Origin: Hyalella azteca
Taxonomy: Eukaryota > Arthropoda > Malacostraca > Amphipoda > Hyalellidae
Assembly (NCBI RefSeq): GCF_000764305.2
Contig: NW_025933291.1
Span: 1-64,000, forward strand
Direction of reading: 5' to 3'
DNA length: 64,000 nt
Shown here piece after piece: positions 4,621 through 34,628 of the stretch (its first letter is position 1; each line of letters starts with the position of its first letter). Below the pieces are notes generated by a model. It was not told where the DNA came from. It saw nothing but the letters and a program-made list of their open reading frames with translations, and did not search any database. The translations under genes were made by a program, and so were the position numbers.

Positions 4621-5225
4621 TCAAGCGCCATCTTGAGGAGAGAACTCCAGCAGCATCAGCGAGTAGGTCACGGTTGCATTCAGCGACTTGAAGGGGTCAA
4701 ATAACAAAAAATTTGACGAAAAACGCTAAATATCAGATAAATAACTGCAAAATAATGAAATAAATGTTCGCAAACGGAGAACGTGGCTCTAAAAATCTTT
4801 CTGAAACTCCCAGTGGTTTTTATGTTGAAAAAAATATATCAAATTTTTAATAATCATTCCAAATCCGATTTCTGAAAATGCAAAGTCATCGAGAAAGCAT
4901 TACCATTATTTTTCATCATTTGTATTATTTACCGTCCGCATGCTCTTCCCACTCACCAGCCACGCAGGATCGTCCCACTCACCAGCCACGCAGGATCGTC
5001 CCACTCACCAGCCACGCAGGATCGTCCCACTCACCAGCCCCGCAGGATCGTCCCACTCACCAGCCCCGCAGGATCGTCCCACTCACCAGCCCCGCAGGAT
5101 CGTCCCACTCACCAGCCCCGCAGGATCGTCCCACTCACCGGCAGGAGGCTGTGGCCCCCCAGCAAAAAAAGTCCCAACAGGTCACAGGCGCCGCCGCTGT
5201 GCAGGCTGCTTAGCACCCCCTCCAC
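4621..5225 (-). CDS. Gustatory receptor, last two exons only
   Basis: The penultimate exon is 5225-5139 (87 bp, 29 codons, phase 0 on both sides) and reads VEGVLSSLHSGGACDLLGLF onward to LLP, the loop and transmembrane start seen in arthropod gustatory receptors before the C-terminus. Its acceptor is TTGAG and its donor is a near-consensus GTGAGT. The last exon is 4686-4621, after acceptor TTCAAG, and reads SLNATVTYSLMLLEFSPQDGA then stop; TYSLMLLEF fits the TY-x5-EF hallmark in the last membrane helix. Exon D of the receptor at 27.7-30.8 kb has the same length, phase and borders. The receptor would be a seven-helix ligand-gated channel in sensory neurons. Upstream exons were not found: the sequence above 5226 is AT-rich and then satellite, so the gene is either truncated or its 5' exons lie further right. 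Confidence 0.75.
4946..5138. repeat. 26-bp minisatellite built from a splice donor
   Basis: About seven copies of a 26-bp unit (plus strand CCCACTCACCAGCCCCGCAG then GATCGT) run up to the receptor exon. On the minus strand each unit contains GGTGAGTGGGACGATCCTGC, so each repeats the GTGAGT donor of the exon ending at 5139. Left units have CACGCAG where right units have CCCGCAG. Confidence 0.9.
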
Positions 5226-5990
5226 CTCAAGCATTTAACAGAAACTCTCATTATTATTTTCATATTATGTCGAATGAAGTAATGAATTTGTAGGAAAAAT
5301 CAAAGCAGTTTTGAAGCATGAGGATAAATATAAATTTCCAAGAAAAGCTCATGGATCTAAAAAAGTATAAATAGTATATGTCACGTATGCTAGTAAGTAA
5401 AATATGTAATAGTATGTATTAAACTAATATATTACGGTACCTTAAGCGATTGGCTGCATTAAATTAATCTAGAAAATATTCGACAAAATTATTTACAGTG
5501 CCTCATGAACAGTTTAACTCATTTGCGTCTGTTTTGTAAATAACTGATAATGATCACGATCGCGAATAAAGTTAAGGTATCGCTTTTAATCAGACAGAAG
5601 GAATGCCGATTAAGTTTTACCGGATGAAACCATTCCTAAATAGAATCCATTTACAGCAATCACTACTTCTATTCTCGTTATTTTGACTTGTTATAAATTT
5701 ATAGAGTACTAAATCGAGTTGTAAAATCATTACAACTCGAAAACTTTCCAAAGAATAATATGGAAATTTTTGATGTTGAATTATCAGATCATGATAATTA
5801 CGATTAAATTACCAACTTCATTTCACAGAAAACACGTAAACGAATTAAGTTATACCTACGCAATCACAATCAATTGATTATATCAACTAAAATTGGAAAA
5901 ATGCAGAGCCTATTAAGTAAATAACGCCACTATCAGACTCAAAATTTGATTGAAACCATCATTTGGCAGTAAAATTTTCACATCAGGCCG
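5226..5990. other. AT-rich sequence including an inverted paralogue of 42.85-42.98 kb
   Basis: No gene is seen. The stretch 5757-5900 (with GAAAACACGTAAACGAATTA) is the reverse complement of a diverged stretch at about 42850-42985. Confidence 0.5.
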
Positions 5991-5994
5991 AAGA

Positions 5995-6110
5995 TGAAGA
6001 TATTGAGAAGATATTCACATATTGAAGAGGCGACTCTAGAGGCATGAAGAGGCGACTCTAGAGGCATGAAGAGACGACTCTAGAGGCATGAAGAGACGAC
6101 TCTAGAGGAT
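5995..6110. repeat. 22-bp tandem repeat, GAAGAGGCGACTCTAGAGGCAT
   Basis: Four to five near-identical units. The same unit occurs in reverse complement at 38700-38893 and 41505-41905. Confidence 0.9.
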
Positions 6111-7240
6111 CCTAATATTATCCTCCTCATAATATCCTTCTCATAATATCCTTCTCATATTATCCTCCTAATAATATCCTCCTAATAATATCCTCCTCAC
6201 TATATCCTCCTAATATTATCCTCATCATAATATCCACCTCATAATATCCTCCACATAATATCCTCCTCATAATGTCCTCCTCATAATATCGTTCTCATAA
6301 TATCCTCCTCATAATATCCTTCTCATAATATATTCCTCGTAGTATCCTCCTCATAATATCTTTCTCATAATATCCTCTTCATAGTATCATCCTCGTAATA
6401 TCCTCCTCGTAATATCCTCCTCATAATATCCTTCTCATATCCTCCTCATAATATCCTCATCATAATGTCCTCCTCATAATATCCTCTTCATATTATCTTC
6501 CTCAAAATATTACCCCATGATAGCCTCTCTACAACATCATCCTCATAATATCCTCATCGTAATATCCTCATCGTAATATCCTCTTCATAATATCCTCCTC
6601 ATAATATCTTGCAAATAATGTCCTCCTCCTAATATCCTCCTCATAATAGCCTCTTCATACTATCCTCCTCATAATATCCTCCTCATAATATCCTCCTCAT
6701 AATATCCTCCTCATAATATCCTCCTCATAATATCCTCCTCATAATATCGTCCTAATAATATCCTCCTCTTAATATCCTCTTCATAATATTCTCCTCATAA
6801 TATCCTTCTCATAATATCCTCCTTATAATATCCTCCTCATACTATCCTCCTCATAATATCCTCCCATACTATCCTCCACATAAAATCCTCCTCATAATAT
6901 TCTCCTCATAATATCCTCCTCATAATATCCTCCTCGTAATATCCTCGTCATGATATCCTCCTCATAATATCCTCCTCATATTATCTTCCTTATAATATTG
7001 CCCTATGATAGCCTCTCTACAATATCCTCCTCATAATATCATCCTCATATTATCCTCCTCATAATATCCTCCTCATAATACCTCCTCATAATACCTCCTC
7101 ATGATATCCTCCTAATAATATCCTCCTCATATTATCCTTCCTATAATAACCTCCTCATAATATTCACCCCATGATAGCCTCTCTATAATATCCTCCTCAC
7201 TATATCCTCCTCCTAATATTCACCCTATGATAGCCTCTTT
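6111..7240. repeat. 14-bp satellite, consensus ATAATATCCTCCTC
   Basis: About 80 imperfect units of roughly 14 bp fill more than 1.1 kb. Interruptions with CCCCATGATAGCCTCTCTAC recur near 6510, 7000, 7160 and 7220, giving a weak higher-order period. Confidence 0.95.
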
Positions 7241-8671
7241 ACAATACCCTGCTTACGATATCCTCATGGTATCCCTCTTAAGAAGTCCTTCATATGATAT
7301 CCTCAGAATATCCTCTTGCCTCACAAGGCAAGCGCTATCATCTGTGCAGCTTCCTCCTCGTGAGGCGCGTTGTGAGGATACAGCGCCTGGCACCTCATAT
7401 ATTATCGCCACTTTGCCCCACATGATATATTAGGAATTTTTAATAATTATTAAAGTTTTAATCTCTATATTGTTCCATCTCATTAAAAAAAACTAAAGTC
7501 AATAGGTATGATAAGTGTCTCCATAGCATCTAACTCCGCAGCGCCAACATTAAAACGTAAATACACAGAGCCCTCATCAAAAGTTTGCAGGGCCGTCATC
7601 AAAATTCTGCAAAGCTCTCATCAACATTTTTCATGCGAGCTTTCTCATTTTTCATTTAAAGATAATATACAACGAAACAAATAATAAAAACAAATAATGC
7701 ACTATTTGAACAGTACGATCCCTGAGCTGGGATTTCATAACAAAATCTTGGAGTGCTTTTGGTTGTTTTGGTTGCAATGAAGATAATTTCACTTCATTGT
7801 CTCCGTAACATTGAATTTTCTATTTTCGTGGAACTTGTGAGTGTTGTTCAAAGGAACTTTACGTGTACGTACATAAATAACTTAGAAAAAATACATGCAT
7901 AGAAAAAAATTCATTAGCCTTATTTGGGTTAGATGTTAATTAAAATGTGCTTCTATATATTACAGGAGTGAGGTACATATATTATTTAGTATTAAAGCTC
8001 AGGTTAGAACTGTAAGACTTAAATTACATTGGAAAGCCAAACAAATCAAATTAGGAGTTAAATATGGGACTCTGAAGTTTAATTTACGCATGATATCGAG
8101 TTCTCTTTTATGGTAATGTTTAGCGTTGGAAAAAATGTGATTGAATTTTTGGCGATAAATCGACTTCAAAAAAAAAAGGTTTTCTTTGCGATCTATATTC
8201 ACGTACCATATAGAAAATTGCAATATTTTCTATTCTCGATTGCCATATCCGCATTATGGATAGCAAAATCAACACTGGATGCTTAGTTCCTGGAATTTTT
8301 GTCATCCACGCATTTTTTCTGTTAATTCAATAAACAAAATTTCGATCTTCAGCAAAATAAATGAGTCACATAACGTGAAACGCATCCTGTATTCACATTA
8401 GTAATGGCCAGCTGGTTCAACGCGTTCCTATTCATGCTGTACACGTGTTGCACTTAAGCATTTGAATATTATATGTCAATCCTATTATATCATTATATAA
8501 TGAATACAATATAACGATCTACTGACATTCACATGGAGTTATTTATGAATTTTTAACTCAGTCTTTCAAAATATTTTCTGAAGCGAGCGGCTGGGAATTT
8601 TTACCAAGCAAATGACATTGAAAAACCGCTGAATTCGACGTTGCTTCAACCAAACAACTTTCAATTCACTG
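7241..8671. other. Unassigned sequence
   Basis: A short GC-richer stretch at 7320-7400 has no recognisable product. The rest is AT-rich, and its open frames on either strand show no motif. Confidence 0.4.
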
Positions 8672-9078
8672 TTGATTCAATCAAACAACGTTTAATTCGA
8701 CGTTGATTTAACGTCAGATATCTGGTACGCTGCAAATAACAGGATTGGCTTCTTTGAGCTTAAGACGGCTCCTGTTGATTCAAACAACGTTTAATTCGAC
8801 GTTGATTTAACGTCAGATATCTGGTACGTTGCAAATAACAGGATTGGCTTCTTTGAGCTTAAGACGGCTCCTGTTGATTCCACCAAACAACGTTTAATTC
8901 GACGTTGATTTAACGTCAGATATCTGGTACGTTGCAAATAACAGGATTGGCTTCTTTGAGCTTAAGACGGCTCCTGTTGATTCCACCAAACAACGTTTAA
9001 TTCGACGTTAATTTAACGTCACATATCTGGTACGCTGCAAATAACAGGATTGGCTTCTTTGAGCTTAAGACGGCTCCT
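8672..9078. repeat. Tandem repeat, unit about 103 bp, four copies
   Basis: Units start with GTTGATTC at 8672, 8774, 8873 and 8976 and share CGTTTAATTCGACGTTGATT and ATCTGGTACGTTGCAAATAA. Copies are nearly identical; the 8774 unit lacks about 4 bp. The last unit runs into unrelated GC-rich sequence near 9079. Confidence 0.95.
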
Positions 9079-9289
9079 AAATTGCATAGTTTATGCCGCG
9101 GCCGCCACAGTTCTGCAGGCCGACGCTGCAATGCGCACGCCGCGGATTACCGACAGAAAACTTCCTATTGCTGCAGAACACGCGCAGAAAAATGAATATG
9201 TAATTTTGTCCAAAAAATGGACACTCGTGCTGCCCACAGTACTGATGCGCCCTGTTCTCCATGGGAAAATGGGTCAGAATAACCCGTGC

Positions 9290-9690
9290 GGATACAAAAA
9301 TAAATATAAAACCATTTTTAAAAACCACGTTTTTCTGGTGGTTAAAAAACCAAAAACAATGAAATAAAACAAATAAATAAAGCAAATAAAAAACTTTCAA
9401 AAAACACGTTTTCTTAATGGACAAATAAACAAATAAAAAAACTTTTAAAAACCACGTTTTCTTAACGGGCAAAAATAAAAACATTTACTCATACATAACA
9501 TTACATATCATTTTACATAACTTTAATGTTATGTAAGAGTAAATGTTTTTTTTTCGTTAAGAAAATGTGGTTTTTTTAAAGTTTTTCATTTGTTTTATTT
9601 CTTCATTTTTAGTTTTGTAAAAACCAGAAAAACGTGGTTTTTAAAAATAGTTTTTTATATTTATTTATTTTCTACTTTTCAGTTTAGCAA
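9290..9690. repeat. Long imperfect palindrome (foldback)
   Basis: The left arm contains ACTTTTAAAAACCACGTTTT and CATTTACTCATACATAACAT; the right arm contains their inverses (ATGTTATGTAAGAGTAAATG, then AAAATGTGGTTTTTTTAAAG). The centre is near 9508. Arms of roughly 170 bp show several mismatches and small indels. No terminal duplication was identified. Confidence 0.75.
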
Positions 9691-9699
9691 TTTTATCAA

Positions 9700-12640
9700 T
9701 TCAAATAATTTTCCAGTGTTAGCAACTCTGGATGTTCGACAAAAAACTCCATTCCCAACCGTTAATTTTAGGGGTTTTTATTAAAAAAATTAAAATGTTT
9801 TCTAATTATTACTTCTGATGATCAAATCTTGAATTGTTAGGCAGCATAAGCATGCATGCCAAATTTCAAGTTTCTAGAATCTTCAGAGGTGCTCTAAATT
9901 AAGGTTTGTATTTTTGGCGACAGACAGAGACGAAACGAAACTAAGAAAAACGTGGTAAAAAAATACATCACTTTTTGAATAACGCGTCCTCCTTTTTTTT
10001 GAGTGATGTGGAAACGTTATAAAAGCTCTGCTGCCTGCAAGAATCATCCAGCAGAGATTAAAGATAAAATCTAAATTAATTGCGTTATCTTCACAGAGAA
10101 ATCATTTGTGAATGGAAGTCTGGTTCAGTCCGATGAAGCGAAGTTATGCAAATTAATAAATTTTGATACCCTCAGTAGATACATTAGTTTCCCTCAAAAG
10201 TGTATATTTTTCCCATCATGTGCAAGCTAAAGCCCGGTGAAAAAGGTTTGTAGTTAAAAGCATTAGTTATAAATACTGAAATACAGAAAATTGTATTCCT
10301 ATCAGTATAATTTTTTCTCATGGATACGATTTTATTTCACAAGTTTATTATATTTTAAATGTGTTATATTACTTTGTATTTTCTGGCATAAACCTTCCCC
10401 GTGTTCAGCAGTTGCGGTTGCAAGGCAAACTCTTAATGTCCTTAATCCCACACTGCAGATCCTACGCAGAAGCCCTCACACTTTGTTAACGAGGCAATGC
10501 GTGTGGGGAAATTGCTTCAATTATTTTCCCTTAGATATTCCCCTTGCTCGGTGAATTCATGTCGATATATAGCAGCGAGTGTAGCGAAAGCGATTCCCCA
10601 ACTTCAAGAAGCTTGGTGTTCTAGGGTGTGGTCTCGTGCACATACAGGGAAGCATATAGATCATTCTACGGTGCATGATAAATGTTTTTAATAATTCTGC
10701 GTTTGGTATTTATTATCGAAAATGCAAGTACCGTATCTTATTCTTAATTAAACATGCATTCATGCAATGTTTAATTTTGCTTCTCTAATTCTATCTCAGA
10801 AATATTGTGCTGAGAAGAAACTTCTCAGGCATGTTTTTTTTATTTTATTTTTTCTCGATTATAGAGTACAATACATACAATATTACAATTATAGATACAA
10901 GGAAATCGATGACCCACTCCGATAATTTAATGGGTCATTGTCTAAATATTACGACATCTTTATTATTATTTTTTTTAGTATACAGAGGACGTAGCACTAG
11001 CTGATGCGCCCTTTAACCGCGCAAACTGGGTCAGCATAACTCAGGCGAGGGCAAAAAGTGCATTGCTCCTTAACAAAGACTCACTCATTTGTCAGAGTGT
11101 CGCCTCAGATTAAGTGCTCTTGGTTGCTTTGAAACATACGCTATCATATTTAAGTAATTGAGAGTCCCTCAATTTGCATCTACATTCAGACGAAGTTCAC
11201 TCTGTTAATTTGCAATGTTTTTGGATATCAATACGTTTGCTGAACATTTGTTTCACTTCTTTGCCAGCTCATGTATAGCTTAGTATCGTGATACAAAATA
11301 AAATATCATAAAAGTTTCAAATAACACTTAGACTAAAATATTCGTCCAATACAGAAATATCTCCACGTAGAGACGCGCTGTATGCACGGCGGCTCAGCGC
11401 CGGCATTGCCAATGCATTCATCGTATTTTGTGAGGTGCGCGGCCACGGTATTGGACAATGCAGATATTCGCTGGTGAATAAAATTCAATTTGATCGGCAG
11501 CCAGTCGCTCGTTGAAAGCAAGATTGATTGGCATTTTATTTTATCGAATGAAATATGAAATATTAGTCTGTGTTTTTTTACACTCTGATATCTGAAATCG
11601 TCCTTTATTGCAGGAAGTTACATTTTTTCTAGTAAATTTTTGTAAGTTATATTTTTTATTATATTACTAGCTTAATTTTATATTTAAATAGCATTATTAG
11701 GTCAATTACATACGATCCTGATGAACACAAATAGCGCTAACCAGCAATGGATATTCAGCACTAGTACTCATGAATGTTACCCGAACATTTTTCTCAATTG
11801 AGATTACAATGTACATATTGATAAGTTTATAGTTATATACACTATTTGTTATATCAATTTGGTATATTGTTTTCCATATAAATATAGGTACTATTATATA
11901 TACTATTATGTATATCATTTGTTTTGCCGTTGATATAACTCTTAAAGCAAAATCGCTTTCCCATCGATAGGCAGGAAATATCCCCTTATTAATAATTATT
12001 AATTTATTTGATTTTTTGTTTAGGTTTGGTAAAGTTGCGATATTCCAGCGAAGGGGAGATTAACTCCATATCAATAGAGGGTATCATTAATAGAAGGTAG
12101 GAGAGAAAAGTGAGGGTAAGTGGGAAAAATGAGGGGACGTCAGCTCCAGGTTGCGAAATTCCCTCACGCTAAATAAACCATCCGCTTATCGGGCGGTTGA
12201 ATAACGTGAACGGATAACGTCCACAAAATCGTTAGAATATCTGTCGTGTCACAACAATTACCTTGCAACAATAATTACAGAGCTCGAAAATTATTTCATT
12301 GCAAAAGGGCCATGAAAAACACTGATGGCTTTGACACAAGCAATTAGTATGCACAATATAAACAATATGTGCACTGCAGTTAGTGGAAAGTATTGAAATT
12401 GAACGATTGGAATCCATTAAGCTTTGAAAACCTAGTAACTATATAATTTGCATGTCACTCTACAGCAATCCATGCCGGCTTGGCGAGTCCTGTGCGATAG
12501 AAGCGATTTTTGTTGCGTGTGTTAACAGAAAATTAAAATTCGAGTGAAGAAATTCTCCCGTCGCTGAGAAAATTTGGGAGAGAAATTTTCAGAAGTAAGC
12601 TTTCATGACGAGAAAAGCAGTCTTGGTAAGTAAGAGAAGT
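9700..12640. other. Unassigned sequence with two GC-richer islands
   Basis: Islands at about 10390-10640 and 11340-11520 are GC-richer than their surroundings, and the second has an open minus-strand frame, but I recognise no family and cannot set exon limits. A half copy of MITE family A lies at about 11000-11115. The rest is AT-rich with nothing identified. Confidence 0.35.
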
Positions 12641-12649
12641 TTGTGAATT

Positions 12650-12970: not shown

Positions 12971-12971
12971 C

Positions 12972-13262: not shown

Positions 13263-13303
13263 CGTGCAAAGACCTGACGCGAGCCCGCGGCTGTTGGTAC
13301 GCT

Positions 13304-13463
13304 CACTGAGAGAAATGGGAAGGTCATTGTTCAAATAAAGACGCACTCTTTGTTTTATGTGGGTTATCCTAACCCAGTTTGGCCCGGCTGCAGAGCGTAT
13401 CAGAGCTACATACCAAGAGTGTGTCACAATTTGGACAATATGACTCATTTATTTTTCTGAGTG
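13304..13463. mobile_element. CACT-ended inverted-repeat element (MITE family A), best-defined copy
   Basis: A 160-bp element starting CACTGAGAGAAATGGGAAGG and ending with CATTTATTTTTCTGAGTG. The arms are about 45 bp and imperfectly inverted, both containing a TTGGACAAT/ATTGTTCAA core. It is flanked by CT on both sides (13302-13303 and 13464-13465). The paralogous region at 20090-20110 lacks the element: GGTGCACTAGCAC there corresponds to GGTACGCT plus AGCAC here. This shows precise insertion with a 2-bp target duplication. It has no coding capacity. Confidence 0.85.
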
Positions 13464-13596
13464 CTAGCACTGATCACGCGATGGCGATCAAAGGCCTGTG
13501 TTACTTCTGTTCATTTATTCAATGGCCTTTATGTACTCTAATGATATTTACTTATTTTGTAATGGTAACTATTATAGTTATTATTCTAACTCTCCC

Positions 13597-13762
13597 ATAT
13601 ACTGACTGCTTATATACTGACTGCCTATATACTGACTGCCTAAATACTGACTGCCTATATACTGACTGCCTATATACTGACTGTCTACATACTGACTGCC
13701 TATATACTGACTGCCTATATACTGACTGCCTATATACTGACTGCCTATATACTGACTGCCTA
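13597..13762. repeat. 15-bp satellite TATACTGACTGCCTA, truncated by gap
   Basis: Eleven or so near-perfect 15-bp units. As 15 is divisible by 3 it reads as repeated YTDCL, which is not a gene. The minus-strand unit contains GGCAGTCAGT, the donor found at the exon ends at 20578 and 22269. Confidence 0.95.
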
Positions 13763-14328
13763 NNNNNNNNNNNNNNNNNNNNNNNNNNNNNNNNNNNNNN
13801 NNNNNNNNNNNNNNNNNNNNNNNNNNNNNNNNNNNNNNNNNNNNNNNNNNNNNNNNNNNNNNNNNNNNNNNNNNNNNNNNNNNNNNNNNNNNNNNNNNNN
13901 NNNNNNNNNNNNNNNNNNNNNNNNNNNNNNNNNNNNNNNNNNNNNNNNNNNNNNNNNNNNNNNNNNNNNNNNNNNNNNNNNNNNNNNNNNNNNNNNNNNN
14001 NNNNNNNNNNNNNNNNNNNNNNNNNNNNNNNNNNNNNNNNNNNNNNNNNNNNNNNNNNNNNNNNNNNNNNNNNNNNNNNNNNNNNNNNNNNNNNNNNNNN
14101 NNNNNNNNNNNNNNNNNNNNNNNNNNNNNNNNNNNNNNNNNNNNNNNNNNNNNNNNNNNNNNNNNNNNNNNNNNNNNNNNNNNNNNNNNNNNNNNNNNNN
14201 NNNNNNNNNNNNNNNNNNNNNNNNNNNNNNNNNNNNNNNNNNNNNNNNNNNNNNNNNNNNNNNNNNNNNNNNNNNNNNNNNNNNNNNNNNNNNNNNNNNN
14301 NNNNNNNNNNNNNNNNNNNNNNNNNNNN
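13763..14328. other. Assembly gap (566 N)
   Basis: Run of N starting inside the 15-bp satellite. The distance is unlikely to be exact because the right edge carries a library adapter. Confidence 0.99.
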
Positions 14329-14378: not shown

Positions 14379-14416
14379 CTGTCTCTTATACACATCTAGA
14401 TGTGTATAAGAGACAG
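14379..14416. other. Nextera mate-pair junction adapter (library artefact)
   Basis: CTGTCTCTTATACACATCT followed directly by its inverse AGATGTGTATAAGAGACAG. This is the circularisation junction of two Tn5 mosaic-end adapters, so it is synthetic. The sequences on its two sides were joined in the library and need not be neighbours in the genome. Confidence 0.97.
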
Positions 14417-20228: not shown

Positions 20229-20576
20229 GTCCCATATAATGACTGTCTATATACTAACTGCCTATATACTGACTGCCTATATACTGACTGCCTATATACT
20301 GACTGCCCATATACTGACTGTCTATATACTAACTGCCTATATACTGACTGCCTATATACTGCCTGCCTATATACTGACTGCCCATATACTGACTGTCTAT
20401 ATACAGACAGCCTAAATGCCTTACTGCCTATATACTGACTGTCCATATATTGACTGCCTAGAAACTGACTGCCTATATACTGACTGCCTATACACTGTCC
20501 GCCGAATACACTGACTGCCTATACACTGTCCGCCCAATACACTGACTGCCTATACACTGTCCGCCGAGTACACTGA
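20229..20576. repeat. 15-bp satellite with 31-bp variants adjoining an exon
   Basis: TATACTGACTGCCTA units, then longer units including CACTGTCCGCCGAATA at 20490-20576. On the minus strand the array begins exactly at the GTCAGT donor after 20578, and every unit repeats GGCAGTCAGT. Confidence 0.9.
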
Positions 20577-20577
20577 C

Positions 20578-20679
20578 TGCCTTGCATGCCAGTGCGCCAC
20601 AGCAACAGCGGCTGAGCGCAGACAATCAAGATAAACATGACAATTGCGGGGCGATGCGCGCGCCAGCGATGCGGCGAAA
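20578..20679 (-). CDS. Chemoreceptor-like transmembrane exon, copy A
   Basis: A 102-bp exon between acceptor GCGCAG (before 20679) and donor GCA/GTCAGT. It reads RWRAHRPAIVMFILIVCAQP then LLLWRTGMQG: a basic start, one helix and an AQPLLL..TG motif. Insect odorant receptors have a similarly placed (R)AQ.P(L/V)...(A)G motif in the sixth helix; assignment to that family is inference. Phase is 1 in and 1 out. The region is GC-rich in an AT-rich satellite desert and is duplicated at 22269-22370 with the same frame open. No other exon of the gene was securely found. Confidence 0.45.
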
Positions 20680-21333
20680 CTGCGCCAGTTATTTTACACA
20701 CTAATTCTGGTTAAACAAATATTTAATTGAAAAGTTATATGATTCGAAACTATTTTTCATTGCTATTTTGCTTGAGTAGGACACTGAGTTAGGAGTTTAG
20801 AAAATTAGTCAATGTAAGTTTTTCGTCTTGATGATGGATGGTAATTGGAAGTTCTAGAACTATAAAATTGTCGAAAAATATAACGTATAATGAGCGTCAT
20901 GTGCTTAAGTGAAGCTAGTGACATGGAAATATTTCATTTGGTGTCATATTGGGTGCTAGAAATTTCTGCAGATTATTAATTGCAGGTAATTTTTCAGTAA
21001 TATTAACTTTACACAGAGTATACACTGTATTTTCTTATTTAATTCAATAAAATTATCATGCTTTTTTTCAAGTTTAATAGCTAGATAAAGTTATTCTAAA
21101 TTCTAAAAATTGAATACTTCATTATTCTTCCGCTGAAATTCACGGGCGAACCCAATTTAACATTCTTGTCACCTTCAAAGGATCTAAAAACTGGAATATT
21201 TTCTCGCTTTATTATCCATTAATAACAGAGATTTTATGTTCTTCGTGACCATTTCTGACTTTTATCCTGCGTAGTTTCTGATAAGATCGCCGATCAGACT
21301 GAGAATTTTAGTTACTTATATTGTTATCTGCCG

Positions 21334-21540
21334 TTCTCAGAGAAGTGAGCGGGTCATTGTCCGAATAGTGGTGCAACTTTTGCCATAGTTTGGGCCATAC
21401 TAAACAATTTATTTTTTCTTAAAAAATGCGTATTAGTTCTACTTCCACTCTCTTCTCGTGCCATAAGTAGCGTGCGCATGCCCAAAAGTGTGTCACTATT
21501 TGGGCAATATGCCCCACTTATTTTTCTGCGTGTTCACTTA
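21334..21540. mobile_element. MITE family A, copy with longer centre
   Basis: Starts near CTCAGAGAAGTGAGCGGGTC and ends near CACTTATTTTTCTGCGTG. The arms carry the ATTGTCCGAATAGTG / CACTATTTGGGCAAT pair. Confidence 0.6.
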
Positions 21541-21684
21541 TTTTTCCCAAACCAGTAGATTTTTTATTAATTTTAAGGTTTTTAAGTTTTCCGAGCGACA
21601 CGAATTGACGTTTAAAAAAGTTTCTACGTTATGGGGCAGACGTGTTGAAAGCGTTGTCCGTTCACCCATAAAAATATATGGTTA

Positions 21685-21832
21685 TATTGTCCGAAATGGT
21701 GAAACACTTTCTGTACGTTTCACTGATATAGGCACTTTTAACCCGACTAAACTGAGTCAGGGGGACAAGCACAAGGGCAACAAGTGCGTGGCAATCAGTG
21801 CAAAGACTCACTCATTTCTTTGAGTGTACAAG
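21685..21832. mobile_element. MITE family A, copy
   Basis: Contains ATATTGTCCGAAATGGTG on the left, AACTGAGTCAGGGGGAC in the middle and CTCACTCATTTCTTTGAGTG at the right end. Confidence 0.6.
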
Positions 21833-21854
21833 GTGATAAAAACTTGTTCAAATC

Positions 21855-22015
21855 TACTGTTTATCTACTGTTTATCTACTGCATATCTACTGTTTTTCTA
21901 CAGTTCATCTACTGTTTATCTACTGTTCACCTACAGTTTAATTACTGTTTACACATAGTTTATCTACTGTTTACTTACTGTTTATCTATTGTTTATCTAC
22001 TGTTTGTTTAAGTTT
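21855..22015. repeat. 11-bp satellite TTATCTACTGT, short array
   Basis: About 14 units, less regular than the array at 23620-24530. Confidence 0.85.
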
Positions 22016-22204: not shown

Positions 22205-22268
22205 TTCACCTATACACTGTCCGCCGAATACACTGACTGCCTATACACTGTCCGCCCAATACACTGAC
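22205..22268. repeat. 31-bp units of the donor-derived satellite
   Basis: Two units of CACTGTCCGCC.AATACACT adjoining the transmembrane exon, equivalent to the right end of the 20229-20576 array. Confidence 0.85.
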
Positions 22269-22370
22269 TGCCTTGCATGTCAGTGCGCCACAGCAACAGC
22301 GGCTGAGCGCAGACAATCAAGATAAACATGACAATTGCGGGGCGATGCGCGCGCCGGCGATGCGGCGAAA
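22269..22370 (-). CDS. Chemoreceptor-like transmembrane exon, copy B
   Basis: Same 102-bp length, acceptor, donor (GCA/GTCAGT) and open frame as 20578-20679. I see only two differences inside the exon (Gly to Asp near WRT, Trp to Arg near the start). The second copy results from the segmental duplication, so conservation here is weak evidence of function. Confidence 0.4.
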
Positions 22371-22379
22371 CTGCGCCAG

Positions 22380-23570
22380 TTATTTTACGCACAAATTCTG
22401 GTTAAACAAATAAAAAAAAGTTATGTGGTGGGGAATAACTTTTCATAGCTATTTTACTTGAGTAAGACACTGAGTTAGGAGTTTAGAAAGTTGGTAATTG
22501 TAATTTTTTCGACTTGATGGATTGTAATTGGAAATTTTAGAATTATATTGTTGAAAAAGATAACGTATGATGAGCGTCATGTGTTTAAGTGAAACTAGTG
22601 ATATGGAAATATTTTTATTTGGTGTCATATTCGATGCTGGAAATTTTCGCACACTATTAATTGCCGATAATTTTTCAGTAGTAATAATTTTACACTGAGT
22701 ACATACTGCATTTTCCGATTTAATTTAACACATCCTCATACTTTTTTTCAAGCTTGCAAGCATAAATTTATTTTAAGTTTTATGCCAATTCCTTCAGTAA
22801 ACCTCCACCCGAATTCTAAAAATTGAATTCTTCAGTATTCCACAACCTGAAATTCACAAGAGAACCCAATTTGCCATTCCTGCCACCTTCAAAAGATCTA
22901 AAAACTGAAATATTTTCTCGCTTTATCATCCATTAATAACAGAGATTTTATGGTCTTAGTGACCATTTCTGACTTTTATCCCGCGTAGTTTCTGATAAGA
23001 TCGCCGATCAGACATAGAATTTGGTTACTTATATTGTTATCTGCCGTTACCACTCAGAGAAGTGAGCGGGTCATTGTCCAAACAGTGGTGCAATTTTAGC
23101 CATAGTTTGGGTCATTCTAAACAGTTTTTTTTTCTTAAAAAGTGCGTATTAGTTCTACGTCCACTCTCTTCTCATGTTTTAAATGGCGCCTGACCAAAGT
23201 GTGCAACTATTTGGACAATATGTCCCATTCATTTTTTTGAGTGTTTCACTTCACTTGTTTTTTTTGCCAGAACATTTTTTTATTAACTTTAAGGTTTTTA
23301 AATTTTGCAAGCGACACGAATTGACGCTTAAAAAAAGTTTCTATTTTATGAGGCGGGCGTGTTGAAGGCACTGTCATCCGTTAACCCATAAAAATTAATT
23401 GGTCATATTATCCCAACTGGTGAAACACTTTCTGAACGAACCATTGATATACGCACTTTTAACCCGACTAAACAGAGTCAGGATGACTAACACAAGAACA
23501 AGAAGTGCGTCGCCGTCAGTGCAAAGTCTCACTCATTTCTTTGAGTGTACAAGGTAATGGGAGTATCGAT
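22380..23570. repeat. Segmental duplication, copy B
   Basis: Paralogue of 20690-21840. Includes two MITE family A copies at about 23050-23260 and 23410-23560. Confidence 0.85.
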
Positions 23571-23619
23571 AGTGAAAACTTGTTCATACGACGAGACTTG
23601 AGTTTTCAACTGTTTGTCT

Positions 23620-24530
23620 TGTTTGTCTACTCTTTAGCTACTGTTTATCTTCAGTTTGTATATTGTTTTTCTAATGTTTATCTGTTGTTTTTCTACTGTT
23701 TATATTCTGTTTATCTACTGTTAACCTACTGTTAATCTACTATTTATCTACTGTTTATCTACTGTTTATCTACTGTTTATCTACTGTTTATCTACTATTT
23801 ATCTACTGTTTGTCTACTGTTTATCTACTGTTTATTTACTGTCTATCTAATATTTATCTACTGTTTATCTACTGTTTATCTACTGTTTGTCTACTGTTTA
23901 TCTACTGTTTATCTACTGTTTATCTACTGTTTATCTACTGTTTATCTACTGTTTATCTACTGTTTATCTACTGTTTATTTACTGTCTATCTAATATTTAT
24001 CTACTGTTTATCTACTGTTTATCTACTGTTTGTCTACTGTTTATCTACTGTTTATCAGCTGTTTATCTACTGTTTACCTAGTGTTTATCTACTGTATATC
24101 CACTGTTTACCTACTGTTTATCTACTGTTTATCTACTGTTTATCTAATGTTTATCTACTGTTTACCTACTGTTTGTCTACTGTTTATCTACCGTTTATCT
24201 ACTGTTAATCTACTGTTTATCTACTGTTTATCTACTGTTTATCTACTGTTTATCTACTGTATATCCACTGTTTACCTACTGTTTATCTACTGTTTACCTA
24301 CTGTTTGTCTACTGTTTATCTACCGTTTATCTACTGTTTATCTACCGTTTATCTACCGTTTATCTACTGTTAATCTACTGTTTATCTACTGTTTATCTAC
24401 TGTTTATCTACTGTTTATCTACTAATTATCTACTATTTACCTACTGTTTATCTACTGTTTATCTACTGTTCATCTACTGTTTATCTACTGTTTATCTACT
24501 GTTTATCTACTGTTTACCTACGATTTGTCT
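23620..24530. repeat. 11-bp satellite TTATCTACTGT, expanded array
   Basis: About 80 units. Since 11 is not divisible by 3, every forward frame reads the same 11-residue cycle (YLLFIYCLSTV), which explains the long overlapping hydrophobic frames; none is a gene. Confidence 0.97.
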
Positions 24531-24935: not shown

Positions 24936-24959
24936 TCCACGCTAACCCACTAACAAATG

Positions 24960-25680: not shown

Positions 25681-25689
25681 TTTGCAGCT

Positions 25690-25830: not shown

Positions 25831-25839
25831 GGGAAATCA

Positions 25840-26730: not shown

Positions 26731-26734
26731 CATT

Positions 26735-27222
26735 GGAAGAACACTAGAGAACAGGCCTATGAACACTAGATAACAGGTCTGTGAACACTAGAGAACAGGC
26801 CTGTGAACACTAGATAACAGGCCTGTGAACACTAGAGAACAGGTCTGTGAACACTAGCTAACAGGCCTGTGAACACTAGAGAACAGGTCTGTGAACACTA
26901 GAGAACAGGACTGTGAACACTAGAGAACAGGACTGTGAACACTAGAGAACAGGTCTGTGAACACTAGATAACAGGCATGTGAACACTAGATAACAGGTCT
27001 GTGAACACTAGAGAACAGGACTGTGAACACTAGATAACAGGCCTATGAACACTAGAGAATAGGACTGTGAACACTAGCTAACAGGCCTGTGAACACTAGA
27101 GAACAGGACTGTGATCACTAGAGAACAGGCCTGTGAACACTAGAGAACAGGACTGTAAACACTAGATAACAGGTCTGTGATCAGTTTATAACAGGCCTGT
27201 GAACACTAGAGAACAGGTAGTA
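26735..27222. repeat. 22-bp satellite GAACACTAGAGAACAGGCCT
   Basis: About 22 units, varying at AGAGAAC/AGATAAC/AGCTAAC and GGCCTGT/GGTCTGT/GGACTGT. Confidence 0.96.
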
Positions 27223-27429
27223 GCCTAGACATCCACATTGAAACTACTTTTCGTATCTAATTCCCAATTCTGCACTACACTGAGTAATACAAGCAACTTT
27301 ACAATAGTACATTGGCTTACAGTAGAAGGATTAGCGTCCAGAGCTAGTCTATGTTAAATATTAATACATATATTACCATACCAACCATAAACATAAACCT
27401 GGCAAGGCGGTATCTTGCAGTGTCTTAAA

Positions 27430-27592
27430 CTCAGAAAAATCAATATGTAATATTGTCAAATAGTGACACACGTTCTGCTCGTAGCATTGATACGTCCAAT
27501 TACCGGACCAAAAGAGGTCAGAATGATCTACACAGGGGCAAATGTGCATTGATTTGTAGACAAAGTCAAACTGATTTCTCTGATTTTACAAT
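27430..27592. mobile_element. MITE family A, copy inside or next to the receptor gene 3' end
   Basis: Left CTCAGAAAAATCAATATGTA with TTGTCAAATAGTGACACACG; right TAGACAAAGTCAAACTGATT. It lies about 100 bp downstream of the receptor stop codon at 27696. Confidence 0.6.
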
Positions 27593-27695
27593 TTAGTGAA
27601 TGTATACAAAAATGATTCATACAGACAAGTGCATCAACATTTATGTTATTATATTATTATTAATATATTTATTCATTATTCATGAATTATTTTAG

Positions 27696-30600
27696 TTAAG
27701 TGACAGAGAAGTCCATGAGTATGAGGCTGTAGGTGAGTATGGCGTTCAGCAGCTGTGGCAAGAGAGGAAGCATGAGTAAAACATTTATGTTTACATTAAT
27801 TAACATTGGTATTTCATTATTTGGACCCATGGTATCCACAATTTTCAACTATATAAAAAACATGAATTTAGTGACGTTCCCTATACCCAATAAAAACAGT
27901 TCGGTAGTATTAATCCGTATATAATGTATAATTTTAAATCCGAATTTACTGTTCAATGAATATTAGATTACATCGAATTGTATTAGATATATTAGGTGTA
28001 ATAATGTTTATAACATAATTATAATATAATTTTTCTTGACTTATTCTGGTATAGACTGACGGGCAGTGTGCAGTAGCCCCCCATATTAGATATATTAGGT
28101 ATAATAATCTTTATAATATAATTATAATATAATTTATCTTTCATTATTCTGGTATAGACTGACGGGCAGTATGCAGTAGCCCGCCAGGGAGAACAGCCCC
28201 AGCACATCACAGCCGCCCCCGCTGCGCAGGGCGCTCAGCGCTCCCTCCACCTCAACAGTTGTTCATTTTAAATAAAACTGACAATAATATTAGGACATTT
28301 TTTGATTTTCTAATGAACTTGTGAATAATTTTAGAAAATTCTTTGATGTTTCTAAATGATTAATTTGAATCAAACAGTCAGGGTGTCAACGACACAATTG
28401 CCATACCAACATAAGTGGGAGAATGTCACAATAGCGATACACTTTTCACCATTTGTGTGAGTCATGTTAACCCAGTTATGCACGAATAAGTGCGTCACAA
28501 TCTGGACAATAAGATATATTCATTTATCTCAGTATTTCACGACTCATTCACTCAGACTTACTTTCATTTTAGTTTCGTTGTCGTCGGTCCCGAACAGGAA
28601 TTCCTTCTCGAGCAGAGGCACAAGTTTCTCTTTCTGAGGACGAACAATAGATTTAGATGATTAAGATAATAACACAGATTATGTTAATAATATTAACTTT
28701 CAGTCAGAGTTCATTGTACTAATAATTTAAGTAATGTAGACTCATTGAAATAATATTCAATATTAATTCAATAATAATTCAATATTGATTGAAATAATAA
28801 CCTGCTCCCTGAATTGCTCATGTAGCTGAATCTTCATGTTGATATTCATATAATTCTTAATTACAGTTCAATTAACAAAAGATTTATTTACTGTATCTGT
28901 ACTTACAATCATACACCACGTGTAGAAAACTGAAGGTATCTTCCTACCTTCACTTAGTTTGGTAGCTCGGCGATTTATAAAATTAATGCCTCGAACAATT
29001 TGACCGGACTTCCAATTTTATAATTCAGATTTAATGTCTTTATTAACTAAGCTTTACATTTCTTCATAATTTCGAGCACACGTAGCAGTCTAGCAGCTAA
29101 GCCATCCTTATTTCTATTATAACGACTCTAAAGACAAAACTTCCCTGCCCCTGTTTCGCGACCCAGCAGCCAGTCCCACTCTAACGTTCATTCAGTCAGC
29201 ACACGGCATTAATCATCTCTTCATCTTCAGCCTTCGTCGACGTCAAGATGTCGGATACGAACTTGTGTTTAGTATTGTCTCTATGAAGCAGTAGAGACTT
29301 GTGGAGCGATCGGGGTTCGGCGGTGGCTACCTTTCGGGCGGTGATGAGGTCACGGCGGACCACACTGGTACTATCTATGACGCGTCCGGGACTTGGGCCC
29401 TACCATGAGCGACTTCCCGTCAGCACGGCATGAAGAACTGTCGTCACGGCGTCCACGGACCAGCGGACCATCTGGCTACGCTACGACACCGAACTTATCT
29501 CGAAGCGTTACTTTCTTCCGGCGGTCAATTAATAAATAATTATTTAGTTGACATTGCCTTATTTATCCCCCACTCGGCCGTGTTTTCAATACCACGGAGT
29601 TGGATTAGATGATTTTTAGAAATACGATGGATTTAAAGAAAAAGCAAACAAAAATCCCACGATATACAATGCAGGATCGAAAGGAAATTACACGCAGTAA
29701 TTGTACCACTCACCTGAGTCTGCAGCACTCACCTGAGTCTGCAGCATTATAGCACTCACCTGAGTCTGCAGCATTGATGACTATGTCGAGGAACATGCGC
29801 GTCAACATGAGCAGCAGCGGCATCTCCAGCATGGACATGAGTTGCGACTGCATGTCATCCACCTGTCGTGTTCAAAACTTAATCAACGAGCAAAAAAGGG
29901 TTAATTTTTAATATTCAGCATCACGCGTAAATAGTACGCATAAGACGTGTTCAAAAAAACAATTACAGGTAGGCAAAGTTTAATATATCATGGAAGAATA
30001 AAATTGAAAATATCACACAAATACAAATGATATAAAATATTAAAATATTTCTACAATAATATTTTAAAATCAAAGTGCATGTCTCACGATTCGTATTGTC
30101 TTCCGAATTTGTTCTAGCAGAGGCCCGCCACAGCCTTCAGCTTTACGTTCGCTGTGTTTTAAAACAACTTCAACGGAAACGCAAGTTAAGTGCAAACTCA
30201 GCCGACGGAAAATCACGTCCAGGAGCAATATTTCGCAGAAACAATATCCATCAGTAAGAAGAATGTGCAGGTTAGGCAGGAGGTCGGCGTCGGTCGTTAC
30301 ATGGGTGACCAAACTAATCATTCCGACAGCGGCAAACACGAAAAAACGACAACTGAACAGCGTGCGTTTTTTATCCATGATGTCCTCGCAGAAAAACTTG
30401 ATTGATTTCGTCATCTTCGTGGGTTGCGACAAGCTAATTTGCGTGCGAAGTCTGTTGATTCTATTTAGGAATTTTGTGAGATTTTTCGAGTTCCAGAAAA
30501 TCAGGAAAATTGCCACGACAATCAAAAGATCTTCGAAGCTGTCAAGAAACGCCGTGACTGTTTCTGACGCGTCCCTCACTGCTTTATCTTTTGATTGTAT

Positions 30601-30792
30601 TTCCATTAAAGTTAAGTAAGAATTATTGCAGCATATCACCATTATTGTTAAGTTCAAAGTTGTGAACAAAAACTGGGAGAAAAGATCCAATGTCGCTCTT
30701 AAACGGTCATTGGAACTTTTTTGGGATTTCCACTTTAGTAAACCACTTATATAAAATAGGAAATAGGAAGCATTTTCATCCCAAACCTTCAT
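27696..30792 (-). CDS. Gustatory receptor gene, nearly complete
   Basis: Exon A, 30792-30088 (705 bp, 235 codons), runs from ATG to a GTGAGA donor; an in-frame TAG lies seven codons before the ATG. It has four hydrophobic segments, including LFSQFLFTTLNLTIMVICC, EDLLIVVAIFLIFW and FFVFAAVGMISLVTHV, and ends LLEQIRKTIRI. Exon B, 29862-29760, follows acceptor GACAG and reads VDDMQSQLMSMLEMPLLLML, the sixth-helix region. Exon C, 28633-28562 (KEKLVPLLEKEFLFGTDDNE), exon D, 28250-28164 (VEGALSALRSGGGCDVLGLF) and exon E, 27752-27696 (LLNAILTYSLILMDFSVT, stop) join in phase 0. TYSLILMDF is the TY-x5-[ED]F hallmark, with D for E. Exon B ends in phase 1 or 2 while C needs phase 0, so an exon between them is missing from this model; an open stretch at 29475-29404 (VRWSVDAVTTVLHAVL) is a candidate. 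The expected product is a seven-helix sensory ion channel of about 400 residues. Confidence 0.8.
28020..28200. repeat. Tandem duplication of exon D end plus donor
   Basis: The exon D tail with its donor (CTGCCC/GTCAGTCTATACC on the minus strand) and about 60 bp of the following intron are present twice, about 110 bp apart (donors at about 28163 and 28054). The downstream copy has GCACACTGCCC instead of GCATACTGCCC. Confidence 0.85.
28400..28550. mobile_element. MITE family A, copy in receptor intron
   Basis: Contains GTCACAATAGCGATACACTT, GAGTCATGTTAACCCAGTT and AGTGCGTCACAATCTGGACA, the family's arms and centre. It sits in the intron between exons C and D. Confidence 0.55.
29714..29770 (-). 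promoter_or_regulatory. Three tandem 5' splice sites at the end of receptor exon B
   Basis: TGCAGACTCAG/GTGAGTG occurs three times in a row, with exon ends at 29760, 29733 and 29714. The first spacing is 27 bp (frame kept), the second 19 bp (frame changed). All three match the 5' splice consensus equally, so use of each would give different proteins. Confidence 0.75.
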
Positions 30793-30799
30793 CTCGATA

Positions 30800-32670
30800 G
30801 GAGCTTTTACCTAATTTTTTTTTAGTTTTGAAAAAACTTCTACCCTTTCGAGGTGATCTAAAGACTTAATTTCTGCAGGAACCACTGAAAATATTGAAAG
30901 TTTCAAGATAAACTGTAAAATATTGATGGTGTGGGACTAAAACATCTAATTGATCATTTTTTAGCCTTAAATACGAGTACTAATAAAGGAACATGTCTCA
31001 GCAGTTCTTAAAAAGAATAAAAAATATGATGAATTTGTTAGTCACTATCAGAAATAGTTAATTTTAAGTAGAACTAGAATATGCAGATGAAATTAAACTA
31101 AATACAAGTTGAATAATCAACGATTCATTTCAAATTTCTATTCTTTTCATGCAATAAACCAATTTTTGATCTGAGAGCGGGACACAATGACTACAATGCA
31201 TCCGAGTTGTGACCCATCACAAAATCATGCCTCAATATTGTCTACATTGTGACCCATCACAATATCGTGCCTCAACATTGTCAAAATTGTGACCCACGAC
31301 AAAATCACGCCTCAGCAGCTCTATACGTCAATGCGTCAGCCATGGCTCCTCTTCGACCACTGAAACAGTGCAGGCTTTTTAACACAATATATATTACTAA
31401 CCTCAGTAAACGTGCATGCACAAGCTGTCGTCGCTAGCACAAGTGAAGTGAAAGTAAATAGAATGAAAAATATTCTTTGGTGTGGTGAAGGATGATGCGC
31501 GTCACTCGCTCCTTTGTGGGACGGAGGTAAACATTATTATGAATTTGTGAGTAAATACGGCCAACAATGGTCTCGATTGTTACTTAGAAGAGAACAAATC
31601 CTTCAGTTACAAAGATAAAAAAAACAAAGATACGTTAATTTGATCGTCATTGATTGTTACCACAAACAACCAAGCATCCGAGTTCTAAACACGCACATAT
31701 GATTTCTCTTATTCGTATTGCAAATTAAATTAGTCTTTGTGAATCTTACAAGGTCGTATTGCAAAAAAGATAGTAACCCCAGTCCCAATAACCCAGCTCT
31801 ATTAATAAAAATAATCGTATTAAATTGAAAATGGCAAGCATTTCAGTTAATGTATGCACAAATACCGGCTAGTCTTTCGACAGAGAACATTCGTCAATAA
31901 AGATCAGATTTGAAAATATATCTATTAATTGTAATATGACAGGTGTAGCTGTATGTATAAAATTTCAATATAATTAGTGCAATATTTTAACTATTTTATG
32001 ATATAAATAATTCAGCCAACTGAATAATATGACAGTACCATTAGTACTAGGTAAAAATTAGAAATAACTATACAGGTTACCTCCATAATTCACTTATTTC
32101 TAGATAATTTCAAAGCTAAATTAAAGGCAAATCTCAGTTCGAAAACAAGACAGGCACGACTTATTAGCTTGAAGTAAGCGCTCAATTTTCCAAATGTGCA
32201 AAATATTCCGGCATAGACTGGTTGTAAAGGACTTTCTTGTTGGCTAGTCCTTTGGGAACGTTTACCGAACTATTCATAGACGCGCCATCATAGCAGGATA
32301 AAAAAACGAGTATTCCATGATGTACGGTTTCTAGAAAGGAAATGACAAATATACATAAGAAATATATACAAGACAAAATATACGCCAATTACATGAAATA
32401 TATGAACCAAGATAAAGCCATAATTAAACAGGATAATCAATAATTCACGAAAACAAACGATAAATCGAACGAACCGAATAGCTTGGTTCCCCTGGTAGTG
32501 CAGGCATCCGTAATCAAGGGCTAACAATGAATGCTAATGACGCTTGTAAAATCAACTGCGTCGAGTAGGCTAATTCTATAGCTACAAGTTTCAGAAAAAG
32601 GGAAAATGGCGGCTACACTGGTAATAATTGACTGGTTCTTGCGAGTAAGACCTGTGAGCAATGTTCTTAA
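30800..32670. other. Intergenic; short repeat at 31215-31315
   Basis: Three units of TTGTGACCCATCACAA plus TGCCTCAACATTGTC lie at 31215-31315. Open minus-strand frames at 32182-32527 are hydrophobic and AT-rich without a recognised motif. Confidence 0.4.
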
Positions 32671-32679
32671 ACCGTCAAA

Positions 32680-32975
32680 ATTCTCAGAAGAGTCCGTCGC
32701 AAAAGAAAGTTCTTGACAAAATCAGTCACAAAAAAAAGTTCTCAGAAAGTCCGTCGCAAAAGAAAGTTCGCAGAAATTCTCTCACAAAAGAAAGTTCTCG
32801 GAAAATCTGGCACAAAAGAAAGTTCGCAGAAAATCTGTCACAAAGGAAATTTCTCAGAAAGTCTTTCACAAAAGGAAGTTCTCAGGAAGACTGTCACAAT
32901 AGAAAGTTCTCAGAAATACTGTCACAATAGAAAGTTCGCAGAAAGCCTGTCACAGAAGAAAGTTTTCAGACGAGA
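32680..32975. repeat. 28-bp tandem repeat CACAAAAGAAAGTTCTCAGA
   Basis: About 10 units. Lys/Ser-rich frames over it (SQKKV) are read-through. Confidence 0.95.
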
Positions 32976-33159
32976 CCGACAATTCTGAAAGTCATCCATG
33001 GCACCCGTCACCCGTGAAATTTCTCTATAGACTTCGCTATCTATTGTCCATCTTTTCGTATACAAAGTTTTGGACGTCCTTGTCCACAGCCACACCGATG
33101 CACCGCCTTTGTCGTCCGCCGTACCACAGTTTAGATATAAGTGAGATTTAAGATGAATT

Positions 33160-33325
33160 TGTCCTCAGTTAGACCAGCTGATGCCCTCAGTTAGACCAAC
33201 TGATGCCCTCAGTTAGGCCAGCTGATGCCCTCAGTTAGACCAGCTGATGCCCTCAGTTGAACAAGCTGATGCTCTTAGTTAGGCCAACTGATGCCCTCAC
33301 TTATGGCAGCTGATGCCTTCAGTTG
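33160..33325. repeat. 22-bp tandem repeat CAGTTAGACCAGCTGATGCC, array 1
   Basis: About seven units. A second array of the same unit is at 34630-34780, at the same place in the duplicated block. Confidence 0.93.
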
Positions 33326-34069
33326 ATCCAGCTTGCTTCTTGCCGCTATCGTTGTTGTAGAGACAGACGATCAGTAATTGTGTCCAGAAACATGTTCAGT
33401 CGTCTCTCGAAGGCCTACAGGGTGAACTCGTCTCTCTTGTATCATTTTGCAATTTGTTAAACAGCAACTTTCGCCCCTCGGAAAGGGATCTTACTCGAAT
33501 AAATTTGAATTTGACCGCAGCTTTGCTGTGTAATGGGGATCTTGCACCGTCTCATTCTGGTGGTATCTTACATTTGTCACTGATAACAATCTTTACTTCC
33601 TTGCTAGTAATAAGTCTAATTCGTAGTTAACAATCTCTCCTCCTTTCTAACAATTTCACTTTCTTTCAACAATCTACTTCCTTTTATCAATTCTACTTCC
33701 TCTTAACAATTCCACTTCCTTGTTAAAATTCAAACTATTTGTACTGGACAATTGTAATTCCCACTTCACGTAGCTGTTCTCAAAGTTGCGGTGTTGTTGG
33801 CATTGTCCCGACAATTTTCCTCACTGCAATATTGCCGCGTACACTGCAGGTCCTGACGATTATTCTACGAACCTTCAATAATGACCGAAGCAAGCTTTAA
33901 TAATGTAAAAAAACAGTTTGCGGCAAATTCAGCTTCACAAAAGAGCGATGAAATTTAAAGCTAAACCAAAAGTTTGGTGATGGTTCCGTCATTCATTAAG
34001 TCGTAATCTAAAAACTAATGGTTTTATTGTGTTTATGTTTTTCTCACGAATATTGGCTTAATTTCCGTA

Positions 34070-34244
34070 TTTGAATTGCGTGGCCTTAAATGCGAAATGT
34101 CTCGCCAGGTTCGCATTGAAATGCCGGGGACAAGTGCCATATTTACCATCAAATCCTACAGGTTTACGGGCCGCAGGATTTGTGGCATTAACGCCAACGT
34201 AGGCCGGTTGGCCTCAGAGCTGCCGTTGCCTATGGCAACGATGG
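34070..34244 (+). pseudogene. Exon-like frame, copy 1, acceptor apparently lost
   Basis: The frame FELRGLKC..RQVRIE.PG then RFTGRRICGINAN is shared with copy 2 at 35487. Where copy 2 has CCGAG before TTTGAATTG, this copy has CCGTA, so the AG acceptor is absent. The 28-bp satellite starts at its 3' end. Family unknown. Confidence 0.3.
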
Positions 34245-34628
34245 CGATGTGAATGTCTTATGGTAACGCTGGTGATGTGAATGTCTTATGTCAACGCTGG
34301 TGTTGTGAATGCCTTATGGCAACGCTGGTGATGTGAATGCCTTATGGCAACGCTTGTGTTGTCAACGCCTTATGGCAACGCTGGCGTTGTCAATGCCTTA
34401 TGGCAACGCTTGTGTTGTCAATGCCTTATGGCAACGCTTGTGTTATCAACGCCTTATGGCAATGCTGGTGTTGTCAACGCCTTATGGCAACGCTGGTGTT
34501 GTCAATGCCTTATGACAACGCTTGTGTTGTCAATGCCTTATGGCAACGCTGGTGTTGTCAACGCCTTATGGCAACGCTGGTGTTGTCAACGCCTTATGGC
34601 AACGCTGGTGTTGTCAATGCCTTATGAG
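34200..34628. repeat. 28-bp tandem repeat TTATGGCAACGCTGGTGTTG
   Basis: About 15 units. Each repeats GGCAACGCTG/GTGTTG, the sequence at the 3' end of the exon-like frame in copy 2 (35661-35676). Overlapping frames (MPYGNAGVVNAL) are read-through. Confidence 0.95.

Follow-up and report, generated by a model that had tools for sequence, protein, structure and literature searches.

Tandem repeats spanning 5' splice sites of receptor-like genes in a minisatellite-rich region of Hyalella azteca

Introduction

The first 64,000 bases of contig NW_025933291.1 (C810, 121,460 bases) of the amphipod Hyalella azteca (assembly GCF_000764305.2; 519 Mb in 4890 contigs), here called the window, raise the question of why several of their tandem repeats lie at 5' splice sites (donors) and carry a copy of the donor in each unit. 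A first-pass annotation of this stretch had proposed that such arrays start at, and are built from, donors, either by a shared mechanism such as replication slippage or R-loop-linked repair at exon ends, or through selection for decoy donors. Judged from the sequence, the association of repeats with donors is real at three of the places cited, all of them in two chemosensory-receptor-like genes. The probable explanation is that tandem duplications, of an ordinary local kind in a genome rich in minisatellites, persist where they span donors and are eliminated from exons and probably from acceptors.

Donor repeats in two receptor-like genes

The donors that lie in arrays belong to exons B and D of a five-exon gene (receptor copy 1) and to exon D' of a D'/E' pair placed 22 kb further down (receptor copy 2), both on the minus strand (Table 1). 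The annotated 26-bp GTGAGT array at the exon ending at 5139 is indeed present in eight copies, the first being the D' donor, and the three GTGAGT in a row at exon B as well as the duplicated GTCAGT of exon D could be confirmed, the latter with a 103-bp unit in place of the approximately 110 bp claimed and with copies that are 91% alike. That arrays start at the donor is exactly true for D' only, while those of B and D begin inside the exon and extend approximately 14-16 and 22-23 nt into it, respectively. The unit consists of exon tail plus donor at B and D and partly at D', with a 24-mer duplication score of 22 for B, 23 for D and only 15 of 24 for D'. Every copy retains the donor consensus (8/8 at D', 3/3 at B and 2/2 at D) with scores equal among copies, and the donor strings are identical among B copies and among D copies, with D' carrying CCG/GTGAGT in the first and CTG/GTGAGT in the other seven copies (slash, exon-intron boundary). 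No array contains the donor of A or C, or any of the six acceptors (B, C, D, E, D' and E').

Exons of both receptor copies were defined by homology, using the likeness between the two copies and the Pfam match of the joined exons. D and D' share 65.5% identity across 29 amino acids. Because the joined exons match 7tm_7 with E 3.7e-5 and 23.6 bits, under the curated cut-off of 26.6, the two genes are called chemosensory-receptor-like only, on the basis of this similarity. A protein search with the joined receptor returned 4278 candidates with none at E<=1, and a solved-structure search gave no match.

The remaining places cited as donor arrays did not withstand scrutiny. The presumed transmembrane exons ending at 20578 and 22269 represent one repeat block present twice (20518-22005 and 22209-23756, 81%), hence are not independent, and contain no supported exon. 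The supposed exon gave no Pfam match, its two copies differ by two bases (read by eye), each altering the encoded amino acid (W/R and G/D), and the same block is almost equally conserved elsewhere (93-95% at 21190-21370). The 15-bp satellites at 13.6, 20.2-20.6 and 22.2 kb share a single unit, carried by copies of the same repeat region, and at the 13.6-kb copy, described earlier as a donor carrier, no exon was seen. Similarly, the putative GCTG/GTGTTG donor at 34.2 kb falls in a satellite inside a duplicated block (33187-34252 and 34632-35679), does not correspond to the donor consensus and is accompanied by no visible exon.

Frequency of arrays and donor motifs

After merging, 47 tandem arrays cover 13,188 bp, or 20.6%, of the window, and 10.1% of a 197,460-bp sample of the same genome is tandemly repeated (range per stretch 0-38.5%), with this sample comprising 20 stretches, six continuing the window's contig and 14 taken at arbitrary places on contigs listed in a genome-wide motif search. 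Thus, the genome is rich in minisatellites and arrays are common. Inside arrays are 3/5 receptor donors and 0/6 acceptors, which corresponds to a binomial P of 0.063 for donors, and shifting the genes along the window placed three or more donors in arrays with P 0.0995. An array end lies within 10 bp of 1/5 donors (P 0.19) and within 20 bp of 2/5 (P 0.045). With arrays covering this share of the window, 3/5 donors in arrays is unremarkable unconditionally and becomes unusual only given that exons are nearly array-free.

Within the window, GTNAGT is present in 8/44 repeat units against 2.3 expected (reached in 0/200 shuffles), three of the eight being one satellite, and GTRAGT in 3/44 against 1.0 expected (15/200 shuffles). 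Beyond the window, donor motifs do not exceed their reversed controls: among 115 units of the 197-kb sample GTNAGT was found in 7 versus 9 reversed and GTRAGT in 5 versus 4 reversed, and GTGAGT-N10-GTGAGT occurs 1064 times genome-wide versus 1099 for the reversed pattern. When 29 distinct places among the matches listed (100 of the 1064) were judged by eye, though not blind, the array started where an exon-like open frame ends, with the unit repeating the exon tail, in 4/29 (L010, L011, L013 and L018). The other 25 lacked this arrangement, including L019, an exon-like frame in which GTGAGT occurs just twice. L011 corresponds to a CNNM-like exon (solved-structure match, E 2.4e-19) and L013 resembles a RING finger (Pfam E 3.8e-4, under the cut-off), while a Pfam search of L010 and L018 gave no supported family. 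A GR-like piece in L024 was discarded owing to its weak match and unconvincing frames.

Repeats at P450 exon ends

P450 exons, the only family counted (138 kinase exon matches lie outside the count), were sampled blind to repeats by taking the best 60 of 101 matches by score, without inner stops, from which a fixed rule gave 49 donors and 54 acceptors. Sites were scored as duplicated when at least 15 of 20 nt were repeated within 8-90 nt, downstream for donors and upstream for acceptors. By this measure 3/49 donors and 0/54 acceptors are duplicated (one-sided P 0.10; at 16 of 20, two versus none, P 0.22), counts that are not fully independent as several of these exons are close paralogues. Of 13,800 flanking positions tested downstream, 3.7% are duplicated, from which the 6.1% observed at donors does not differ significantly (P 0.28). 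The duplicated donors are those of L075 (24-bp unit, three copies), L104 (25-bp unit, at least four donors within the stretch read) and L081 (19-bp unit, two copies), each with a unit made up of the exon tail plus the donor. A single-copy donor is present at the same place in paralogues of L075 (L076, L078 and L079) and of L081 (L082-L084), and because close paralogues carry one copy, the P450 arrays are ascribed, by sequence comparison, to local duplication.

Pooling receptors with P450 gives 6/54 donors and 0/60 acceptors (P 0.0097); this test takes in the cases that prompted the hypothesis, and its criterion differs between the sets, receptors being scored by array membership and P450 by 15 of 20 repeated bases. 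Exon interiors are nearly duplication-free, with 1/196 tests positive 20-80 nt before donors and 1/216 at 20-80 nt after acceptors. Counting 20-mers centred on each place, in both directions and with the same limit of at least 15 of 20, the donor side shows 0-1/49 in the exon, 2/49 at the donor and 2, 4 and 2 of 48 at 20, 40 and 60 nt into the intron, and the acceptor side 0/54 at the site and 1, 0 and 2 of 54 at the same intronic distances. As a separate observation, L101 (CAG/GCGAGC) and L113 (CAG/GCAAGC) have possible GC donors where L085 has CAG/GTGAGC.

Origin of the donor repeats

Local tandem duplications would arise throughout the genome by replication slippage or unequal exchange, and one that spans an exon end would keep the coding tail and the donor in place in its first copy, with later copies falling in the intron, so that a ladder of like donors beginning in the exon tail would result. 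Such a ladder could be tolerated at the donor, where approximately 9 nt are constrained and all copies offer the same site, with the first donor presumably being used in most cases. Exon bodies, and probably acceptors with their fixed order of branch point, pyrimidine tract and AG, would be cleared of duplications. Arrays would thus appear anchored at donors because they are tolerated there and purged from exon bodies and probably from acceptors, and relaxed constraint in damaged receptor genes may raise the count in the window. As donor rates are indistinguishable from those of nearby intron, exon bodies are almost clean and none of the acceptors tested is spanned, no donor-specific mechanism is needed; a modest donor excess may exist.

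Several observations weigh against local duplication shaped by selective removal. The P450 acceptors (0/54) are compatible with chance at the background of 3.7% (P 0.13), and therefore leave the selective filter unproven. Introns differ little 20-60 nt from donors (8/144) and from acceptors (3/162), and in L088 a 26-bp array stops 4 nt before the family match, approximately 21 nt from the assigned acceptor. Given nearly array-free exons, the shift test for three or more donors gives P 1.6e-5, 9e-5, 6e-4 and 5e-3 when exon overlap is limited to 40, 60, 100 and 200 bp, respectively, limits that were chosen post hoc (the observed overlap is 40 bp) for a hypothesis drawn from the same window. Furthermore, the units differ between the homologous donors of D and D', a hint of local predisposition.

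These last two points, together with 3/5 receptor donors in arrays, the recurrence of units including the donor in other genes and the nominal elevation of P450 donors above flanks, would favour donors as birth sites of tandem repeats, where R-loops, U1-linked transcription events or the junction of a GC-rich exon tail with an AT-rich intron would trigger duplication at a raised rate. However, the P450 excess is not significant, neither the arrays of the 197-kb sample nor the genome-wide GTGAGT-N10-GTGAGT pattern show enrichment of donor motifs over reversed controls, and no exon was seen by eye at 25/29 places among the matches listed, which makes such an origin rather unlikely. Of the initial proposal, what stands is that exon-tail-plus-donor arrays occur, and they recur outside the window in other genes (CNNM-like, RING-like and three P450 donors); a donor-specific mechanism is not borne out. 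We accordingly doubt that minisatellites here originate preferentially at 5' splice sites, through amplification of exon-tail-plus-donor units into introns at a donor-specific rate exceeding the intronic background, thereby leaving several per cent of introns with ladders of identical donors.

Another explanation is relaxed selection in decaying receptor genes, in which duplications across splice sites carry no cost and the window is uninformative on working genes. Signs of decay are that tblastn of the window at E<=20 found no exons A-C for receptor copy 2, leaving only its last two exons, that an exon for the sixth transmembrane segment was not found in copy 1 with one filter applied, and that the B-C junction of copy 1 requires an unusual acceptor. 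Decay as the whole explanation is nevertheless improbable, given that D, D', E and E' seem undamaged in their remaining frames and splice signals, acceptors are hit in 0/6 cases and the same structures are present in CNNM-like and P450 exons. D'/E' may constitute a second set of terminal exons of copy 1, joined by alternative splicing over 22 kb.

The copies might also be selected as decoy or regulatory donors that tune splicing or generate isoforms, as in human IFI6, with which the equal donor scores among copies and the preservation of frame by the second donor of B would be consistent. However, near-identical copies require no selection, in D and D' readthrough beyond the first donor reaches a stop after a short distance, and only 2/7 unit lengths (27 and 24, versus 26, 19, 103, 19 and 25) are multiples of three, about what chance gives and therefore no sign of selection for frame. 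Selection for decoy donors is thus highly improbable. Misassembly of exon-end repeats is at least as improbable: an assembly gap and an adapter junction do lie beside one satellite, but the units differ from place to place, copies have diverged, as in the 103-bp pair, and the structures are found on several independent contigs.

Relation to described systems and significance

A minisatellite that provides multiple splice donor sites was reportedly described in human IFI6 by Turri et al. in 1995. Downstream repeat units are reported to be used there as donors (PMC4526556). The Hyalella arrays are similar in having short tandem units at an exon end with the donor consensus in each, and in being placed at the donor of homology-defined exons, exactly at D', just inside the exon at B and D, and likewise at CNNM-like and P450 exons. 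They differ in that several donors are reported as used in IFI6, while here donors are known from genomic sequence alone. For human segmental duplications, De Grassi and Ciccarelli (2009) described variable internal tandem repeats at exon-intron boundaries, with 27 intron modifications (PMC2812944). This comparably involves minisatellite expansion across exon-intron boundaries in recent paralogues, but those cases are human, transcript-supported and found via exons, and the word "donor" is absent from the main text searched (PMC2812944).

Tandem genomic duplication is also considered a route to new introns, as outlined in a review (PMC3443670), and resembles the present situation in the duplication of a stretch with a donor-like AGGT beside coding sequence. 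In that model the duplicated site becomes a new intron, whereas here an existing intron gains donors. The P450 paralogues L076, L078, L079 and L082-L084 have the donor at the same place with no array, and therefore in these two cases the intron predates the duplication; among the receptors, D and D' share the junction. A literature search turned up no title dealing with tandem repeats at insect donors. Overall, the structure is real yet resembles described cases, and a general attraction of repeats to donors is not demonstrated.

If the P450 rate of 3/49 holds, the genome would contain many natural ladders of identical competing donors, for which single-copy paralogues, such as L076, L078 and L079 versus L075, are ready controls. 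Such ladders would make it possible to test in vivo by what rule the spliceosome picks one of several identical 5' splice sites, and to follow the changes that tandem duplication brings to introns. An excess specific to donors, if true, would suggest a connection of transcription or splicing with the birth of repeats; the present evidence shows none.

Other features of the window

Table 1. Positions of receptor-like exons and of tandem arrays discussed in the text (slash in donor strings, exon-intron boundary)
Feature	Positions	Strand	Remarks
26-bp array, 7.8 copies	4936..5139	-	Eight GTGAGT, the first being the D' donor
Exon B tail and donor copies, units of 27 and 19 bp	29707..29775	-	About the last 16 nt of B plus GTGAGT; three identical CAG/GTGAGT at 29759, 29732 and 29713
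103-bp duplication, two copies	27981..28186	-	About the last 23 nt of D plus GTCAGT donor plus about 80 bp of intron; donors at 28163 and 28060
Receptor copy 1, exon A	30088..30810	-	5' end not determined; donor ATC/GTGAGA, no array; from receptor-copy similarity and 7tm_7 match of joined exons
Receptor copy 1, exon B	29760..29862	-	Donor CAG/GTGAGT
Receptor copy 1, exon C	28562..28633	-	Donor AAA/GTAAGT, no array; acceptor and phase with B uncertain
Receptor copy 1, exon D	28164..28250	-	Donor CCC/GTCAGT
Receptor copy 1, last exon E	27699..27752	-	LLNAILTYSLILMDFSVT, then stop
Receptor copy 2, exon D'	5139..5225	-	VEGVLSSLHSGGACDLLGLFLLGGHSLLP; acceptor TTGAG/G; donor CCG/GTGAGT at 5138
Receptor copy 2, last exon E'	4624..4686	-	SLNATVTYSLMLLEFSPQDGA, then stop; similar to exon E
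15-bp satellite, like that of 20.2-20.6 kb	13597..13762	.	No exon seen; ends at assembly gap
15-bp satellite, repeat-block edge	20234..20582	.	Cited as donor array; unsupported
31-bp array, second copy of same block edge	22209..22273	.	Unsupported as donor array
28-bp satellite in duplicated block	34227..34626	.	No exon seen; not donor consensus

A run of N at 13763-14328 directly follows the 15-bp satellite. After it, at 14379-14416, comes CTGTCTCTTATACACATCT-AGATGTGTATAAGAGACAG, which we take to be an unremoved Nextera mate-pair junction adapter. A search of nine other frames in Pfam gave one near-threshold match only, that of an open frame at 52087-52683 on the minus strand to a TAZ zinc finger (E 3.8e-5, 24.5 bits against 25). 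Rfam yielded no match at gathering threshold and a single sub-threshold one (E 0.83). An LTR-retrotransposon-like element spans 46272-52878, with direct repeats of 155 bp that are 99.4% alike (46272-46426 and 52724-52878) and interrupted gag-pol-like frames, read by eye, between them. Repeated blocks of approximately 1 kb with satellites at their edges (TAGACCCCTGACATGAGTATG and CATGCCTCTAGAGTCGCC) occupy 35897-41900, and an inverted repeat of 101 bp, 98% identical, is present at 40968-41068 and 41244-41344. An insert of approximately 165 bp at 13300-13464, missing from a matching copy near 20.1 kb, has CACTCA/GAGTG-like ends, also encountered at other places in the window, and looks to be of the MITE type.

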